Shown: positions 18,127 to 27,855 of the stretch, in pieces | How positions within the stretch are numbered: position 1 is the stretch's first letter | Layout of the letters: the number at the start of each line of letters is the position of its first letter | Assembly (NCBI GenBank): GCA_018883755.1 | Contig: JAHLFR010000013.1 | Coordinates: 1 to 38,799 of the forward strand | Direction: 5' to 3' | From: Candidatus Methanocorpusculum faecipullorum | Lineage (GTDB): Archaea; Halobacteriota; Methanomicrobia; Methanomicrobiales; Methanocorpusculaceae | Length of the DNA stretch: 38,799 bases | Notes under the pieces: generated by a model | What the model was told of the DNA's origin: nothing | The model's database searches: none | Seen by the model: only the letters and a program-made list of their open reading frames with translations | Position numbers and translations under genes: made by a program

Positions 18127-18996
18127 TCATGACACAGTGGTGTCAGGGTCTTCGGTTTCCGCTTGATCGGTGAGGATCGTTTTGTATGCGGCTTCTGCTT
18201 CACTGGTCAGCCGGTAGTGGTTGTGTACTCCGTCAAAGATGATCATGATTACACCGTCGTCGCGAAAACGCCGGAGATACCAGTTGCAGGAGGACGGGTT
18301 GATCCGAAGTTTTCCGGCGAGTTCCTGTTTGGTGATCCCCGGGTGTTCGCGGATGATCCTGATTACCTGTCTCGCTTTTTCCTGTGAGCGGATGATGTAC
18401 ATCAGCCGTTCGGTTTCGGATATACCGCTTCCTCCGGCAAAGTAGTGGGTATGTCCGCGGTATCTGGTTGCAGACAACATGTTACTTTTCTCCATACTTC
18501 TGAGGTAGTGACGTGCGGTGCTGCGGTTTATGGCAAGTGCATCTGTGATCTGCTGAAGGGAGTGACCTGGATTTTTGCTGAGGTAGGCGAGTATCTGTTC
18601 CGGTCTTTCGTTTTCCAGTTGTTTGTCTTTGCGGCGGTAGAGAACGAGAAAGGCAAGGCCAAGTGAGGAGACAAAAAGGGTGATGAGGTGGGAGGTGATT
18701 GGCGGGATATATGCCATCGGTGATGTAATGAGTGTTTCAAGAATGTCCTTTGGAGGTAATTGCCATAAATCAACGGAGATGATTTTTTTATCGTCATAAA
18801 TTGGTATGATTTCCTTATCTGTAGGGATAAATACAATATTTCCGCGAACAAGTTGATTTTCAGGGGGATTTTTTGGATCATGATTGAACCCATAAATTTC
18901 CCCACCTTCTGCGAAGAAAAGAACAACTGCTGCGCTGAACAAAATAAGTACCACGAGTATGACAATACCGATCTCCCGCAGCAGTTCTCTATCCAT
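18127..18996 (-). CDS. transmembrane winged-helix transcriptional regulator, copy 1
   Basis: 289 residues from ATG 18996; an ATG 8 codons earlier (19020) is an alternative. Layout: TM1 (residues about 9-29), an extracytoplasmic loop of about 60 residues, TM2 (about 100-120), a basic hinge (RRKDK), then two winged helix-turn-helix domains (about 131-190 and 205-262; the first reads SLQQITDALAINRSTARHYL, the second TKQELAGKLRINPSSCNWYL). This is a one-component sensor acting from the membrane onto DNA. It is a paralogue of the gene at 20043-20909 and is divergent from the 19450 gene. Its own promoter has the shared TTTGGTCA element. Confidence 0.85.
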   Translation of the reverse strand: MDRELLREIGIVILVVLILFSAAVVLFFAEGGEIYGFNHDPKNPPENQLVRGNIVFIPTDKEIIPIYDDKKIISVDLWQLPPKDILETLITSPMAYIPPITSHLITLFVSSLGLAFLVLYRRKDKQLENERPEQILAYLSKNPGHSLQQITDALAINRSTARHYLRSMEKSNMLSATRYRGHTHYFAGGSGISETERLMYIIRSQEKARQVIRIIREHPGITKQELAGKLRINPSSCNWYLRRFRDDGVIMIIFDGVHNHYRLTSEAEAAYKTILTDQAETEDPDTTVS

Positions 18997-19216
18997 ACTT
19001 ATTCCCAGCTCATGATCCAAGTATCCGGCTGTGTGCCTGAAACTATGCCCCGGCTATCTCAAATGATTTTATGTTTCTTTTCCATTTGCAGACATCTCTG
19101 CATGGTTCATCAGGTGAGTCTTCAGTGTTGTACCGGTTTTGTGGTCTCCCGACAGCTCTCAAATGAGAGGAAGACCTTTTTCCGGGACCTCATGAACGAA
19201 TGTTTTCTCGTGTTTT

Positions 19217-19240
19217 GTTATAGATGTATTGACCAAAGTG
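19217..19240 (-). promoter_or_regulatory. promoter and operator of regulator copy 1
   Basis: Read on the minus strand: CACTTTGGTCAAT followed by acatctataac, an A/T-rich TATA-like box. The same block recurs at 21022-21045. CACTTTGGTCA is also identical to the element before the 26840 gene. Transcription would start near 19190, giving a leader of about 190 bases. Confidence 0.6.
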
Positions 19241-19308
19241 TTATACCCTGCCAACCAATGCAGATTTTATTTCTCCGTTTTGTCCCGCAACATGAACGGG
19301 TGTAACTG

Positions 19309-19333
19309 TTTGGCCAATCTATTCATATATTAT
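19309..19333 (+). promoter_or_regulatory. promoter and operator of the 19450 gene
   Basis: TTTGGCCAAT (19309-19318, containing the palindrome TTGGCCAA) abuts the TATA box attcatatattat. It is the same arrangement as 21114-21136 and 26771-26793. The site occupies the BRE or activator position directly upstream of TATA. Confidence 0.6.
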
Positions 19334-19449
19334 CCCGCTGATAGGATCTCATGTGTATGCTGTTCTCAGCATTGAAAAAACACAAGGGTATCCTCCCTCT
19401 TGAGTGACGAAATTACTGATATCCGCACTAATAAGGAAACCGATTTAAC

Positions 19450-20004
19450 ATGTCCCGCAGTGAAACCCTTAGACTCATTGCAGTATTCGCCATAGTCATC
19501 CTCATCGGATGCCTTCTGGCGTTTTGCCTCATTCAGTACGGGAATACTTTATCCTCTGCAAACAGTACTACCTCACCGTCACCTCTGAGCTGGATTCCAG
19601 AAAAGGACGGTCTCAGTATTGTCTCGCACGGCGTGGAAATGTCCGCGGAAAATGATACTGCGGTCATCGAACTGATCGAACAGTTTGTTGAAGGGAATTA
19701 TGGCAATTATTATGCTCTTACCTCAATAAACACACGGGATGCTGTCCTTCATGGGGTTGCACTGGCAATACAGTATCCCGAGCCTCGTGAACTTCTCTGG
19801 GAAGATTATGGAAGAGGTTATCTGGTAGTTACACCGGTTCAGGTTCACAGGATCGTGGTAACAATTCCGGATGAACCTGATTGGGATGATGGACTGGCCA
19901 ACTTTGTGGCGGTCTATGGTGAGGACAAACGGTTCTGCCACGCAATTCTCCTGCCGGATGAAGAAGCGAACAAAATCCTAACCCTTTTGGGTGTGGAAAA
20001 ATGA
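19450..20004 (+). CDS. membrane-anchored module protein, copy 1
   Basis: 184 residues. One N-terminal helix (residues about 9-29), then a Ser/Thr-rich spacer and an exported domain. No known family recognised. The paralogue at 21243 shares KDGLSIVSHG, TAVIELIEQFV and the pattern RIVVTIPD versus RIYVTIPD, plus a C-terminal HAILLPDEEANKIL versus HTILLPIETANELL. The shared core indicates a domain of mixed alpha/beta type, outside the cell. AAGGA about 13 bases before ATG 19450 is a weak Shine-Dalgarno. It is divergent from regulator copy 1 and is therefore its likely target or co-sensor. Confidence 0.75.
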   Translation: MSRSETLRLIAVFAIVILIGCLLAFCLIQYGNTLSSANSTTSPSPLSWIPEKDGLSIVSHGVEMSAENDTAVIELIEQFVEGNYGNYYALTSINTRDAVLHGVALAIQYPEPRELLWEDYGRGYLVVTPVQVHRIVVTIPDEPDWDDGLANFVAVYGEDKRFCHAILLPDEEANKILTLLGVEK

Positions 20005-20005
20005 T

Positions 20006-20040
20006 CGGGATCATAAATCCCGGTTCATTTCATTTCTCTG
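20006..20040 (+). terminator. short hairpin after the 19450 gene
   Basis: CGGGAT (20006-20011) and ATCCCG (20017-20022) form a 6-bp stem directly after the stop codon, followed by a T-rich tract (gttcatttcatttctct). It separates two convergent genes. Confidence 0.4.
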
Positions 20041-20042
20041 TG

Positions 20043-20909
20043 TCATGATACAGTGATTTCAGGGTCTTCGGTTTCCGCTTGATCGGTGAGGATCGTTTTG
20101 TATGCGGCTTCTGCTTCACTGGTCAGCCGGTAGTGGTTGTGTACTCCGTCAAAGCTGATCATGATTACACCGTCATCACGAAAACGCCGGAGATACCAGT
20201 TGCAGGAGGAAGGGCTTATCCGGAGTTCTCCGGCGAGTTCCTGTTTGGTGATCCCCGGGTGTTCGCGGATGATCCTGATTACCTGTTTCTCTTTTTCCTG
20301 TGAGAGGATGATGTACATCAGCCGTTCGGTTTCGGATATCCCGCTTCCTCCGGCAAAGTAGTGGGTGTGTCCGCGGTATCTGGTTGCAGACAGCGTTTTG
20401 CTTTTCTCCATACTTCTGAGGTAGTGACGTGCGGTGCTGCGGTTTATGGCAAGTGCATCTGTAATCTGCTGAAGGGAGTGACCGGGATTTTTGCTGAGGT
20501 AGGCGAGTATCTGTTCCGGTCTTTCGTTTTCCAGTAGTTTGTCTTTGCGGCGGTAGAGGACGAGAAAGGCAAGGCCAAGTGAGGTGATAAAAAGGGTGAT
20601 GAGGTGTGAGGTTATTGGCGGGATATATGCCATCGGTGAGATAATTAGCTGCCGGATAATTTCCTTTGGTGGTAGTTCCCACAGTTCGACGGTTTTAATT
20701 TCCGTTCCGTCGTAGATGGGAACAATTTCCTCATCTATCACTTCAATTACAAATTCAGGGTGTTCGAGACTAATAACTGGGTTGGTTGGATCATGATTAA
20801 CTCCATAAACCTCCCCGCCTTCTGCGAAGAAAAGAACAACTGCTGCGCTGAACAAAACAAGTACCACGAGTATGACAATGCCGATCTCCCGCAGCAGTTC
20901 TCTCTCCAT
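20043..20909 (-). CDS. transmembrane winged-helix transcriptional regulator, copy 2
   Basis: 288 residues from ATG 20909 (MERELLREIG). An in-frame start 17 codons upstream at 20960 would add a stretch that is leader sequence in copy 1, so it is not favoured. Same architecture as copy 1: two membrane helices around an extracytoplasmic loop, then two winged helix-turn-helix domains. The DNA-binding half differs from copy 1 at only scattered positions. The loop (GVNHDPTNPVISLEHPEF...) is clearly diverged, so the two likely sense different inputs while recognising similar DNA. Confidence 0.85.
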   Translation of the reverse strand: MERELLREIGIVILVVLVLFSAAVVLFFAEGGEVYGVNHDPTNPVISLEHPEFVIEVIDEEIVPIYDGTEIKTVELWELPPKEIIRQLIISPMAYIPPITSHLITLFITSLGLAFLVLYRRKDKLLENERPEQILAYLSKNPGHSLQQITDALAINRSTARHYLRSMEKSKTLSATRYRGHTHYFAGGSGISETERLMYIILSQEKEKQVIRIIREHPGITKQELAGELRISPSSCNWYLRRFRDDGVIMISFDGVHNHYRLTSEAEAAYKTILTDQAETEDPEITVS

Positions 20910-21021
20910 ATTTATCAGTTGGGTCTTCAGTGTTGTACCGGTTTTGTGATCTCCCGACAACTCTCAAATGAGATGAACACCTTTTTCCGGGACCTCATGA
21001 ACGAATGTTTTCTCGTGTTTT

Positions 21022-21045
21022 GTTATAGATGTATTGACCAAAGTG
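21022..21045 (-). promoter_or_regulatory. promoter and operator of regulator copy 2
   Basis: Minus-strand CACTTTGGTCAAT then acatctataac, a duplicate of 19217-19240. The expected transcript start is near 21000, about 90 bases before ATG 20909. Confidence 0.6.
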
Positions 21046-21113
21046 TTATACCCTGCCAACCGATGCAGATTTTATTTCACCGTTTTGTTACGAAACATGA
21101 ACGGGTGTAACAG

Positions 21114-21136
21114 TTTGGCCAATCTATTCATATATG
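21114..21136 (+). promoter_or_regulatory. promoter and operator of the 21243 gene
   Basis: TTTGGCCAAT (21114-21123) followed by ctattcatatatgat, matching copy 1 except for two or three bases. The leader to ATG 21243 is about 85 bases and, unlike the promoter, is not conserved with copy 1. Confidence 0.6.
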
Positions 21137-21242
21137 ATACCATTGATAGATATGGATATGAACCGTGGGCTCCCTCATCTCATAAATTAGCAGATATGAT
21201 CTCAGTTTATTTCATTGGAGTCTCACGAGGAGACGATCTCAC

Positions 21243-21815
21243 ATGTCCAACCGCGAAACCCCCAACCTCATTGCATTCTTCGCAGTTCTGATTGCTATCG
21301 GTGTCTGCATCGTCTTTTTCTGTGTAGCATGGGACCAGAACGAAAGAAGTACACTCCCTGATGATCCCACTCTGTCACGTCTGGGAATCCCGGACAAGGA
21401 CGGCCTCTCCATTGTATCCCACGGCAACGAAATCACTGTGGACAATGAAACCGCCGTCATTGAACTGATAGAACAGTTCGTTCAGGAAAATTATGATTAT
21501 TGGTTTGCCATGGGCAGCATACAAGTACGGGAAGCAGCCCAAAACGGAGTTGCAATACAGATTCATTACAACCCGGCACGCGAACTAATCTGCCCTCCGG
21601 CATACGATCGGCCAAACGCCACCGTTCTGATCGACCGGATCTACGTAACCATTCCGGATCAGCCGGATAAAAAGAATAAGCTGTACTACTATGTCTCCCC
21701 GGTTCGCGATGGCGATTTGGATCACACCATTCTTCTGCCGATAGAAACAGCCAATGAACTTCTGAAGCTGATCGGAGAAGACCCCATTCCGCAAAACCCT
21801 CTGTTCGGGCTGTAA
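21243..21815 (+). CDS. membrane-anchored module protein, copy 2
   Basis: 190 residues, paralogue of the 19450 product. N-terminal helix (residues about 8-29), an exported domain with KDGLSIVSHG, TAVIELIEQFV, VAIQIHYNPARELI and RIYVTIPDQPD. No known family. GAGGAGAC about 8-15 bases before ATG 21243 is a good Shine-Dalgarno. The last codons (LFGL) and the stop codon lie in the stem and loop of the terminator hairpin. Divergence from copy 1 is much greater here than in the regulators. Confidence 0.75.
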   Translation: MSNRETPNLIAFFAVLIAIGVCIVFFCVAWDQNERSTLPDDPTLSRLGIPDKDGLSIVSHGNEITVDNETAVIELIEQFVQENYDYWFAMGSIQVREAAQNGVAIQIHYNPARELICPPAYDRPNATVLIDRIYVTIPDQPDKKNKLYYYVSPVRDGDLDHTILLPIETANELLKLIGEDPIPQNPLFGL

Positions 21816-21841
21816 TCCCGAACAGAGAGACACTCATTTTT
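21799..21841 (+). terminator. strong hairpin terminator overlapping the stop codon
   Basis: CTCTGTTCGGG (21799-21809) pairs perfectly over 11 bp with CCCGAACAGAG (21817-21827). The 7-base loop holds the TAA stop. A T5 run follows at 21837-21841. This looks like a bacterial-style intrinsic terminator, unusual in archaea. Confidence 0.65.
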
Positions 21842-25488: not shown

Positions 25489-26640
25489 CTACCGTATCCC
25501 GCTAAACAGATCCTTTGCTTTTTCCATCCGCTCCACAACATGAACCCCGAACGGACACCGTTCCTCACAGCTTCCGCATGCGATACAGTCCTCAGCCGAT
25601 GCGGAAAGTGTTCTGTAATGATCCCGCACAGACTCTGGGACACCCTCCTGCATCACCGCAAGATCATAGAGTTTGTGCACCATTGCAACATCGATGCCGG
25701 ACGGGCACGGGGCACAGTGGCCGCAGTAGGTACACTGTCCAAAATAGGCATGATGAGGAGCACCTGCCAGTACGGTTGCGTAATCCCGCTCCTCCTCAGA
25801 TGCCGTCTCATATGCAACAGCCGCTTTCAGCTCCTCCGAAGTACCGCATCCTGCCATGATGCTTGCAACTGCGGGCCTGGTTAACGCATAGTGGATACAC
25901 TGAACCGGTGTGAGTGCCACGCCAAAGGGCGAGGTCTTCGGGGAAAAAAGCCGTCCGCCGCCAAAACCTTTCATCACGGTGAGAGCAACACCGCACTGCT
26001 CGCACAGCCGGTACAGTTCCTCGCGTTCCGGTGCAATGCCGCCGAGGGACTCATCGTAGGTCTCTGCAAAGTAGGTGTTGACGTCCTCGGTTGCAGGGAG
26101 AAGATCAAAGGCAGGATTGATGCTGAACAAAATCACCTCGATCTCGCCGGATTGTGCGGCCATCTTTGCAACAGCAGGATTGTGCGTACTCATCCCCAGA
26201 TGGCGGATAACACCTGCTTTTTTCAGACTGCGGGCGTAGGCAATAAACTCCCCTTCCATGACACTGCGGTAATCCGCCGCCTCATCCACGTAATGAATCA
26301 TACCGAGATCGATGTGATCGGTCTGCATCCGCACCAGCAGATCGTCAAAAGCCTCCCGGACCTTCTCCATATCCCGGCTGCGGACATACTGACCATCCTG
26401 CCAGGTTGAACCGAGATGTCCCTGAATGATCCAGTCCGCTCTCCTGCCGGATATCGCAGCACCGAGATTACTGCGGACGTTTGGTTCTGACATCCAGCAG
26501 TCCACAATGTTGATCCCGCAGTCAGCCGCAAGATCCACAACTGCTTTCACCTCATCTGCACTGCGTCCCTGCAGCCATTCTGCTCCAAGGCCTATCTCGC
26601 TTACCAAAAGGCCGGTTTTTCCAAGATGCCGATACCTCAT
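25489..26640 (-). CDS. aldo/keto reductase-like protein with two [4Fe-4S] motifs, tetrad incomplete
   Basis: 383 residues. TIM-barrel AKR scaffold (MRYRHLGKTGLLVSEIGLGA). D47 of the tetrad is kept (NIVDCWM) and His is present (MIHYVD, H116), but the expected Tyr position reads S/E and the Lys segment is IIQGHLG, with no lysine. C-terminal CTYCGHCAPC and CIACGSCEERC give two 4Fe-4S sites. Classical hydride transfer with tetrad Lys/Tyr is therefore doubtful; an electron-transfer or altered reaction is possible. Convergent with the HxlR gene. Confidence 0.87.
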   Translation of the reverse strand: MRYRHLGKTGLLVSEIGLGAEWLQGRSADEVKAVVDLAADCGINIVDCWMSEPNVRSNLGAAISGRRADWIIQGHLGSTWQDGQYVRSRDMEKVREAFDDLLVRMQTDHIDLGMIHYVDEAADYRSVMEGEFIAYARSLKKAGVIRHLGMSTHNPAVAKMAAQSGEIEVILFSINPAFDLLPATEDVNTYFAETYDESLGGIAPEREELYRLCEQCGVALTVMKGFGGGRLFSPKTSPFGVALTPVQCIHYALTRPAVASIMAGCGTSEELKAAVAYETASEEERDYATVLAGAPHHAYFGQCTYCGHCAPCPSGIDVAMVHKLYDLAVMQEGVPESVRDHYRTLSASAEDCIACGSCEERCPFGVHVVERMEKAKDLFSGIR

Positions 26641-26767
26641 ATTTTCTCACACAGGATCCGTTTGTTTGCTCACCTATACGTTTGCGGATACAGCTAATAT
26701 AGGATGCAGGAACAGAATGCTGCCCTCCCTACAGCACCTACATCATCTCTTCCCGTGGACCCGACGA

Positions 26768-26793
26768 CACTTTGGTCACAATTCATATATAAT
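26768..26793 (+). promoter_or_regulatory. promoter and operator shared with the duplicated module
   Basis: cacTTTGGTCAca followed directly by attcatatataat. The 11-mer CACTTTGGTCA is identical to the regulator promoters, and ATTCATATAT is identical to the plus-strand module promoters. Expected transcript start near 26810, short leader to ATG 26840. Confidence 0.6.
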
Positions 26794-26839
26794 GTTCCCG
26801 TCGATACTCAGATATCGGCTTACGGAGTGGAACAATCTC

Positions 26840-27238
26840 ATGGAAAGAAAAAGCATCCTCATACCTCTTGCGGTTGTCCTCATCCTTCTCAGCTGCTTTG
26901 TCGGTGGTCAGTATTTCTTTGCACACTCCAATTCAGCGATGATCGACAACTCATGGTACTTCTCAATACACCAGACCAACTATACCGATCAAAATCCTCC
27001 GCCCCAAGCTCTCCCTGTTGTACGCCTAACCGAAGAGGACTTTGCCAAACATCCAGTCCTCCATGATCTCTTTGAACAGCGGCAGCTGGTCCTGATCACT
27101 GATGATCCCTTTCTCATTATGCAGATCTCCGGACCGCATATCAGCCATGCAGAGGCAGAAGAACTGATAGCCGCCTACGATCTGGGATACATCGACTGGA
27201 ACGGCAGCTACTACTCACTCACACAAATATTCACGTGA
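26840..27238 (+). CDS. small membrane-anchored hypothetical protein
   Basis: 132 residues from ATG 26840. One N-terminal hydrophobic helix (about residues 7-27), then an exported domain with LTEEDFAKHPVLHDLFEQ, LVLITDDPFLIM and HAEAEELIAAYDLGYIDWNGSYY. No known family. GGAG at 26824-26827 gives a possible Shine-Dalgarno. A longer frame from 26426 runs through the antisense of the aldo/keto gene and is rejected. It shares promoter architecture with the duplicated regulator module, and its tail overlaps the next gene. Confidence 0.7.
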   Translation: MERKSILIPLAVVLILLSCFVGGQYFFAHSNSAMIDNSWYFSIHQTNYTDQNPPPQALPVVRLTEEDFAKHPVLHDLFEQRQLVLITDDPFLIMQISGPHISHAEAEELIAAYDLGYIDWNGSYYSLTQIFT

Positions 27239-27243
27239 TAACT

Positions 27244-27855
27244 ATGGACCAAACACAAACAGCCCGGCTCAGCGTCGTCTTTATCTCCCTCCTGTACTTC
27301 CCGTCGCTCATCGTACTCAGCTTGATGATCACACACCTTCAGCCGCTTTCAAATCCCGTACTTACCTGTCTCCTCTACGCAGTTACCCTCCTCTTCCTCC
27401 TCTTGCCTGCCGCCGGCTGCTGGATATACCGCGAAATCCGCAGTCTGCCCAGATATTACCTCCTCCTCAGCATCATTCCGATCATTATTTGTGCGACAGT
27501 TCTCTTCTTCACCCCCATACTTGGCAGCGGTATTTCCTCCATCTTCTCTGCAATCTATCTCTTAGTTATTTTCCTCAACCCGTTCATTCAGCTCCTCTAT
27601 CTTCCTGTATGGCTGACCATCCCTTCCACCACCCGCCCATACTACATCCCCCTCCTCCTTGCGATCATCTCCCCGGCATTGCAGATCCTCATCAACGTCC
27701 TGTGGGTCCTGGAGATCTTATCAGTCAGAGATGCAGTGCCCGTTCTTCTCTGCATCTCCTTTGTCGTAAGCATCCTTGCCGGAATCACTCTCCTCATCCT
27801 GGGAATAACCCACCCGGAAATTCCCACATCCTCCTCGTCAGGGAGCACATCTTAA
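27244..27855 (+). CDS. polytopic membrane protein of unknown function
   Basis: 203 residues from ATG 27244 (a GTG at 27235 overlapping the previous stop is an alternative). Four to six hydrophobic helices (LSVVFISLLYFPSLIVLSLM, then several Leu/Ile-rich segments), and a Ser/Thr-rich C-tail. No family recognised. Cotranscribed with the 26840 gene by overlap or close spacing. Confidence 0.65.
   Translation: MDQTQTARLSVVFISLLYFPSLIVLSLMITHLQPLSNPVLTCLLYAVTLLFLLLPAAGCWIYREIRSLPRYYLLLSIIPIIICATVLFFTPILGSGISSIFSAIYLLVIFLNPFIQLLYLPVWLTIPSTTRPYYIPLLLAIISPALQILINVLWVLEILSVRDAVPVLLCISFVVSILAGITLLILGITHPEIPTSSSSGSTS

Follow-up and report, generated by a model that had tools for sequence, protein, structure and literature searches.

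How have two neighbouring membrane regulators come to combine almost identical DNA-binding halves with divergent extracytoplasmic loops, and what do they control together with the exported proteins encoded next to them? The question is raised by positions 18127–21841 of a 38,799-nt stretch of DNA from Candidatus Methanocorpusculum faecipullorum (hereafter the window), which is one entire contig, JAHLFR010000013.1, of an archaeal assembly of 1.25 Mb in 46 contigs that is 79.9% complete (GCA_018883755.1). For the genus Methanocorpusculum, an ancestral host association has been inferred (PMC10035134). In the window, the regulators R1 and R2 on the minus strand each lie head-to-head with a gene for a membrane-anchored partner protein, P1 and P2, on the plus strand. 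We consider it rather probable that R1 and R2 are membrane-bound one-component activators, each with its own sensor loop, that act on one class of operator and control themselves as well as exported proteins, the partners being mainly outputs.

The original prediction, made from the DNA letters, had described four genes and a duplicated intergenic region, and placed them correctly: the four open frames are present at the coordinates given below, and the two copies are 92% identical over 250 bp of intergenic DNA. R1 and R2 share 88% DNA identity. The genes and loop segments are as follows (TM, transmembrane helix; pS, proportion of synonymous differences; pLDDT, predicted local distance difference test); G, C and L numbers denote the genomes, contigs and loci compared.

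18127..18996, minus strand: R1, membrane one-component regulator with TM1, an extracytoplasmic loop of ~65 residues, TM2 and two winged-helix domains; the starts of homologues align with the ATG at 18996
18724..18873, minus strand: divergent loop segment of R1, codons 42–91, with near-identical flanks (differences 44% versus 5%; pS 0.68 versus 0.04–0.13)
20043..20909, minus strand: R2, paralogous membrane regulator
20640..20786, minus strand: loop segment of R2, counterpart of the divergent R1 segment, with 82–84% protein identity to the regulator loops of M. petauri C11 and G032
19450..20004, plus strand: P1, membrane-anchored exported protein with a single TM, KDGLSIVSHG family, P1 subfamily
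21243..21815, plus strand: P2, KDGLSIVSHG family, a distinct older subfamily, with a predicted TM and an alpha/beta domain (pLDDT 82.7)

Mosaic regulators

R1 and R2 matched HTH_24 with E values of 2.5e-21 and 7.5e-22, respectively, over two stretches each, and HTH_HVO_0163_N (PF24266) was found above its curated cut-off in both, corresponding to the first winged helix. The regulator model contains a hydrophobic N-terminal helix (residues 2–29) and a further helix (residues 98–140), with moderate model confidence there, and a hydropathy scan revealed two TM segments in most homologues. The two winged-helix domains, together with the two hydrophobic helices, bear out the predicted transmembrane winged-helix regulators. 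The statement that the DNA-binding halves are almost the same and the loops diverged also proved accurate, the halves being 92–97% identical in protein.

At the nucleotide level, R1 and R2 differ at 66 of 150 positions in 18724–18873 versus 37 of 720 outside this segment. The two-breakpoint likelihood ratio for the pair was 67.7, whereas 100 codon shuffles gave at most 11.8 and a further 60 at most 16.6. The pS value is 0.68 in the loop, corresponding to a synonymous divergence (dS) of about 1.8 (1.78), versus 0.04–0.13 in TM1, TM2 and both winged helix-turn-helix (wHTH) domains. Since selection on the protein cannot raise synonymous divergence with sharp edges, these comparisons indicate that recombination, by gene conversion or loop exchange, rather than selection made the pattern. 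Positive selection on the loop was considered and is ruled out by a ratio of nonsynonymous to synonymous divergence (dN/dS) of 0.19 together with the equally raised pS; the notion of adaptive loop divergence thus did not withstand the per-domain dN/dS analysis that had been suggested for it. Either of two routes could have led to the mosaic: the two paralogues may be old, with flanks made alike by conversion, or one may be a young duplicate that has taken up another loop.

A tree of the wHTH domains joins R1 and R2 as sisters (100/100). Among the loops, whose relationships are weakly resolved, that of R2 lies near those of G032 and M. petauri C11, and that of R1 is about equally distant from its nearest neighbours; a search for a donor of the R1 loop found none, the best showing 62% identity. 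The tandem regulators b and c of G011 have 8 differences in 408 positions at codons 122–257 versus 112 in 453 elsewhere, and the c loop is 97% identical in protein to a G016 loop; this is an independent conversion tract in a second Methanocorpusculum. The M. petauri C11 regulator (L076:6001-6870) has an in-frame TGA in its second wHTH, at a position where all other aligned regulators have Trp; it is probably nonsense-truncated, in the isolate with the largest array of partner genes.

A candidate operator

The two divergent promoters contain the following features.

19106..19344: shared promoter segment, copy 1, ~93% identical to 20911–21149
20911..21149: shared promoter segment, copy 2
19228..19248, plus strand: candidate operator, perfect copy ATTGACCAAAGTGTTATACCC, on the R1 side of divergent promoter 1, with a TATA-like box directly downstream when read towards R1
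19298..19318, minus strand: second, inverted candidate site with 4 mismatches, on the P1 side, 70 bp from the first
21033..21053, plus strand: candidate operator, perfect copy, on the R2 side
21103..21123, minus strand: second, inverted candidate site with 3 mismatches, on the P2 side

The 21-nt sequence before R1 (19228) is identical to that before R2 (21033), and none of 100 shuffles reached three matches. Inverted pairs of the site, ~70 bp apart, occur in the divergent promoters of most of the fuller modules described below. Read towards the gene, the motif is ACTTTGGTCAAT, directly upstream of a TATA-like box. Among the 25 genomes of the genus, ATTGACCAAAGTNNNA has 26 exact matches in seven, whereas the reversed control has no match; the single site in G026 is without the TATA context and looks like a chance match. 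When one mismatch was allowed in the gene-ward form CTTTGGTCAATNNNTTTAT, 30 matches were obtained, of which 28 lie in six genomes that all have this regulator subfamily and two in the other 19 together. No match was obtained in G024, the seventh genome that has the subfamily, whose assembly is fragmented (73% complete, in ~280 contigs).

At 19 of the 26 exact sites, the start of an open reading frame (ORF) of at least 100 residues lies on the TATA side, no more than 150 bp away; the other side has one at 7 of the 26. A position of the motif downstream of the TATA box was also considered, and was dropped on account of these counts. The sites precede mostly operons of a small secreted protein and regulator (see below), genes for partners, protease-like proteins and other secreted or membrane proteins. 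The suggestion that the paralogous regulators act on common DNA is strengthened by these results, since both face identical perfect sites that are found almost only in genomes with their subfamily, and we infer that both probably bind there. In archaeal promoters, a site directly upstream of the B recognition element and TATA box suits an activator.

Relics of a secreted PPC-like protein

On G000:C13, the same genome has a third copy of the module. In this copy, and in loci of G015, G016, G030 and G032, a secreted protein of ~150 residues is encoded immediately upstream of the regulator on the same strand; the opposite side often has the gene for a large exported protein, with a partner gene after it. 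The small secreted protein resembles the jelly-roll/PPC C-terminal domains of the subtilases KP-43 (1wmd) and SubHal (5fax) with a profile E value of 3e-4. A broader alignment gave a PPC/jelly-roll profile E value of 7e-3, the matches ranging overall from 3e-4 to 8e-3, and PF04151 matched one of nine members (0.0098). Its description as a PPC-like jelly-roll is thus weakly supported.

Before R1 and R2 the PPC-like gene is absent, and each copy keeps its promoter and a relic of 23 codons from its start, as seen by nucleotide alignment with the promoter and start of the PPC genes of L060–L062.

19122..19193, minus strand: relic of the start of a lost PPC-like secreted gene, 23-codon ORF MRSRKKVFLSFESCRETTKPVQH
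20927..20998, minus strand: PPC relic, copy 2, MRSRKKVFISFESCREITKPVQH

Stand-alone PPC-like genes were found in 97 of 232 Methanomicrobiales genomes and in 21 of 40 genera. A membrane tandem-wHTH regulator lies directly downstream in 19 of the 20 best loci, the exception being L130, with no regulator in the stretch examined; among further PPC loci in other genera, 17 of 20 passed an automatic linkage test. The operon of PPC-like protein and membrane tandem-wHTH regulator occurs across the order, in several copies per genome, and is apparently undescribed. R1 and R2 align with its regulators over the TM, loop and tandem wHTH regions. The window modules are a reduced form of this Methanomicrobiales operon, and the gene co-conserved with the regulator is the secreted PPC-like one, lost in the window. 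In both mosaic cases, the window and G011, the tandem regulators have no upstream PPC gene.

The large proteins of related loci either belong to a family with SHG and Cys motifs like those of clan CD peptidases, both invariant in three full-length homologues, or are HExxH proteins, three of which have weak reprolysin-like Pfam matches (M12). The SHG/Cys protein had no Pfam match and no useful PDB profile match, which leaves its clan CD label unconfirmed. These protease-like genes, which lie beside related copies, are missing from the window locus. Between two modules of G000:C13, a second inverted pair of sites accompanies an ORF that starts PPC-like (MKYLKMKF; L059:6880-7320), probably the relic of a lost regulator module.

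The partner proteins

P1 and P2 each combine a single N-terminal TM with an external alpha/beta domain, and had no family match in Pfam or NCBIfam, in agreement with their earlier description as membrane-anchored proteins of unknown family. A PDB profile search with the partner family returned one meaningless match, and Foldseek with the partner model nothing below an E value of 0.2. Structural comparison of the extracytoplasmic domain with YycH (VIA) gave a Z score of 5.6 over 114 residues (root-mean-square deviation 4.5), a Z score within the range of unrelated folds.

The KDGLSIVSHG family occurs in seven Methanocorpusculum genomes, with one marginal match elsewhere among the 232 genomes of the order. 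P1 groups with M. petauri and G032 genes (79–80% identity), and P2 with another M. petauri gene (75%), the G000:C13 copy and G016; P1 and P2 themselves are 47% identical, with a dS of 1.6 (1.58). Each has closer relatives in other species; P1 and P2 are old separate subfamilies that were not copied along with the regulators. In M. petauri, eight intact members and a lipoprotein are encoded on one strand near one regulator (G015:C11:93811-102475, L060), and a motif copy lies directly upstream of at least four of the eight.

That the regulator and a KDGLSIVSHG protein are conserved neighbours holds within Methanocorpusculum, usually with other genes between, and fails outside the genus. The partner had been proposed as ligand binder, co-sensor or output. 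Of these, the role of output is favoured, and that of a dedicated ligand binder or co-sensor is weakened, as no one-to-one pairing of loop and partner was seen among the compared loci and one M. petauri regulator lies by eight partners.

A co-sensor role, in which each P protein would bind or stabilise the adjoining regulator and the divergent layout would keep matched pairs together, nevertheless deserves a hearing, although we regard it as unlikely. TcpH is reported to bind or stabilise TcpP in this way, and the same has been suggested of ToxS with ToxR. The head-to-head layout would fit, as it is found in the window and also in L070 and L074, where the partner is directly divergent from the PPC-like and regulator operon. 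The single-TM anchor and the similarly saturated synonymous divergence of loop and partner (dS 1.78 and 1.58) point the same way, as does the best structural neighbour, if a weak one: YycH, which is anchored in the membrane and modulates a sensor kinase. However, P1-type partners adjoin R2-like loops in G032 and M. petauri, and in M. petauri a single regulator lies beside the array of eight partners. The partner family is confined to one genus apart from its marginal match, whereas the regulator family is order-wide, and the YycH score is of a size that unrelated folds also reach.

We find it distinctly improbable that the partners are inhibitors or protective factors for exported protease-like proteins, kept after local loss of the protease gene. 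In G000:C13, M. petauri C11 and G016, the partner gene follows that of the secreted SHG/Cys protein within ~80 bp, and elsewhere partners lie near HExxH proteins, as such a role would suggest. On the other hand, the identity of the SHG/Cys protein as a protease is unproven, the partners of the M. petauri array outnumber the proteases, and several partners stand alone (L065, L069, L072).

A model for one regulon with two signals

In our preferred reading, that of activators with mainly output partners, R1 and R2 would each display a small loop outside the membrane and keep two winged-helix domains inside. Both would act on the same element directly upstream of the TATA-like box, and most likely each would activate its own gene together with the divergent P1 or P2 gene, which encodes an anchored exported protein; further exported proteins elsewhere in the genome would also be activated. 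Recombination has kept or made the DNA-binding halves, TM segments and promoters near-identical while the loops differ. With a common DNA-binding half and different loops, two different outside signals would therefore feed one regulon. With the PPC-like and protease-like genes missing from the locus, the partner lies directly behind the presumably regulated promoter.

Several points weigh against this reading. In the window, the sites on the partner side are degraded, with 3–4 mismatches, whereas the regulator-side sites are perfect, so that P1 and P2 may be only weakly regulated. The presumed sensor loop is predicted at low confidence: residues 29–97 of the model have a pLDDT below 50, too low for a structure search. 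R1 and R2 may be repressors rather than activators. Finally, the locus is taken from a single assembly, 80% complete, and misassembly is a risk where near-identical genes lie in tandem.

The last point bears on the mosaic itself, which might be an artefact of assembling a genome from a metagenome, with two strains or two paralogues joined into a chimera. The fragmentation into 46 contigs at 79.9% completeness would be compatible with this, and near-identical repeats invite chimeras. Yet the differences outside the loop are scattered rather than collapsed, both loops are intact in-frame family members, and a similar mosaic is found in G011, which makes an artefact very improbable. Plain tandem duplication of the regulator–partner pair with fast subsequent divergence of loops and partners, the original prediction for the whole module, would explain the tandem order and the 88–92% identity of regulators and intergenic DNA, but is scarcely credible in view of the sharp-edged mosaic, with its ~13-fold jump in synonymous divergence at the loop edges, and of P1 and P2 each being nearer to genes of other species than to each other.

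Beyond the activator reading, it is conceivable, and we put it forward only tentatively, that the system mixes itself: regulators would repeatedly exchange or retain loop cassettes, with gene conversion keeping DNA-binding halves and operators common. If true, the regulon of exported proteases and anchored proteins could stay fixed, its DNA code unchanged, while new outside signals were connected to it.

Other features of the window

A second small anchored family, with a TEEDLxxHPAL motif and 13 members in the loci, is represented at 26426–27238 (plus strand); elsewhere it is found inside regulator/protease modules. The ORF that comes after it, at 27235–27855, has homologues likewise near regulator/protease loci. 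In M. petauri, a decayed fragment of the regulator family (L075:5085-5483, G015:C44; 66% identity) adjoins a SnoaL-like gene, which is its neighbour in the window too, and is likely a syntenic relic. A plasmid search with the locus gave no match.

Comparison with known systems

A census of transmembrane transcription regulators (TTRs) found Methanomicrobia to be TTR-rich and some TTRs to have associated proteins such as ToxS and TcpH (PMC10269533). Like the TTRs ToxR, TcpP, CadC and ArnR, R1 and R2 have a DNA-binding domain and at least one TM segment in the same chain, and like those with a neighbouring membrane or exported partner, they have P1 and P2 as divergent neighbours. In Sulfolobus acidocaldarius, ArnR and ArnR1 are archaeal membrane-bound helix-turn-helix one-component regulators (PMC6396743). 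R1 and R2 are of the same class. ArnR and ArnR1, which control the archaellum, have a different domain order, and we know of no comparable exchange of sensor loops in them.

Other likenesses are partial. The HVO_0163 N-terminal family (PF24266) has the first winged helix in common with R1 and R2, its model covering the helix-turn-helix alone, without loop, TM segments or locus layout. The small secreted protein matches the subtilase PPC/jelly-roll domains by profile and stands alone, without a protease domain. YycH, a modulator of WalK, shares membrane anchoring and a weak structural likeness with the partners, with no sequence similarity and no two-component kinase here; the likeness is only a lead, as the Z score is too low to claim kinship. 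With the order-wide operon the window shares a homologous regulator and lacks the upstream PPC-like gene, which is present before the G000:C13 paralogue. In the literature, of which coverage was incomplete, no description was found of the PPC–regulator pair, the operator, or mosaic evolution or gene conversion in such regulators. In the main text of the Methanocorpusculum genome paper, proteases, peptidases and adhesins go unmentioned, as do transcriptional regulators.

Archaea, and Methanomicrobia above all, have many membrane one-component regulators, of which few signals, operators and partners are known. Sequence comparison here offers a concrete candidate operator and, for host-associated methanogens, a set of exported proteins that may form its regulon, a PPC-like secreted protein as conserved partner of a large regulator family across the order, and an example of recombination separating the evolution of the sensor from that of DNA binding. 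The regulator class is known and the combination apparently undescribed: unlike the described TTRs, R1 and R2 combine tandem winged helices behind two TM helices, a TATA-linked archaeal motif and mosaicism between loop and DNA-binding parts, and their wider family has a PPC-like secreted partner.

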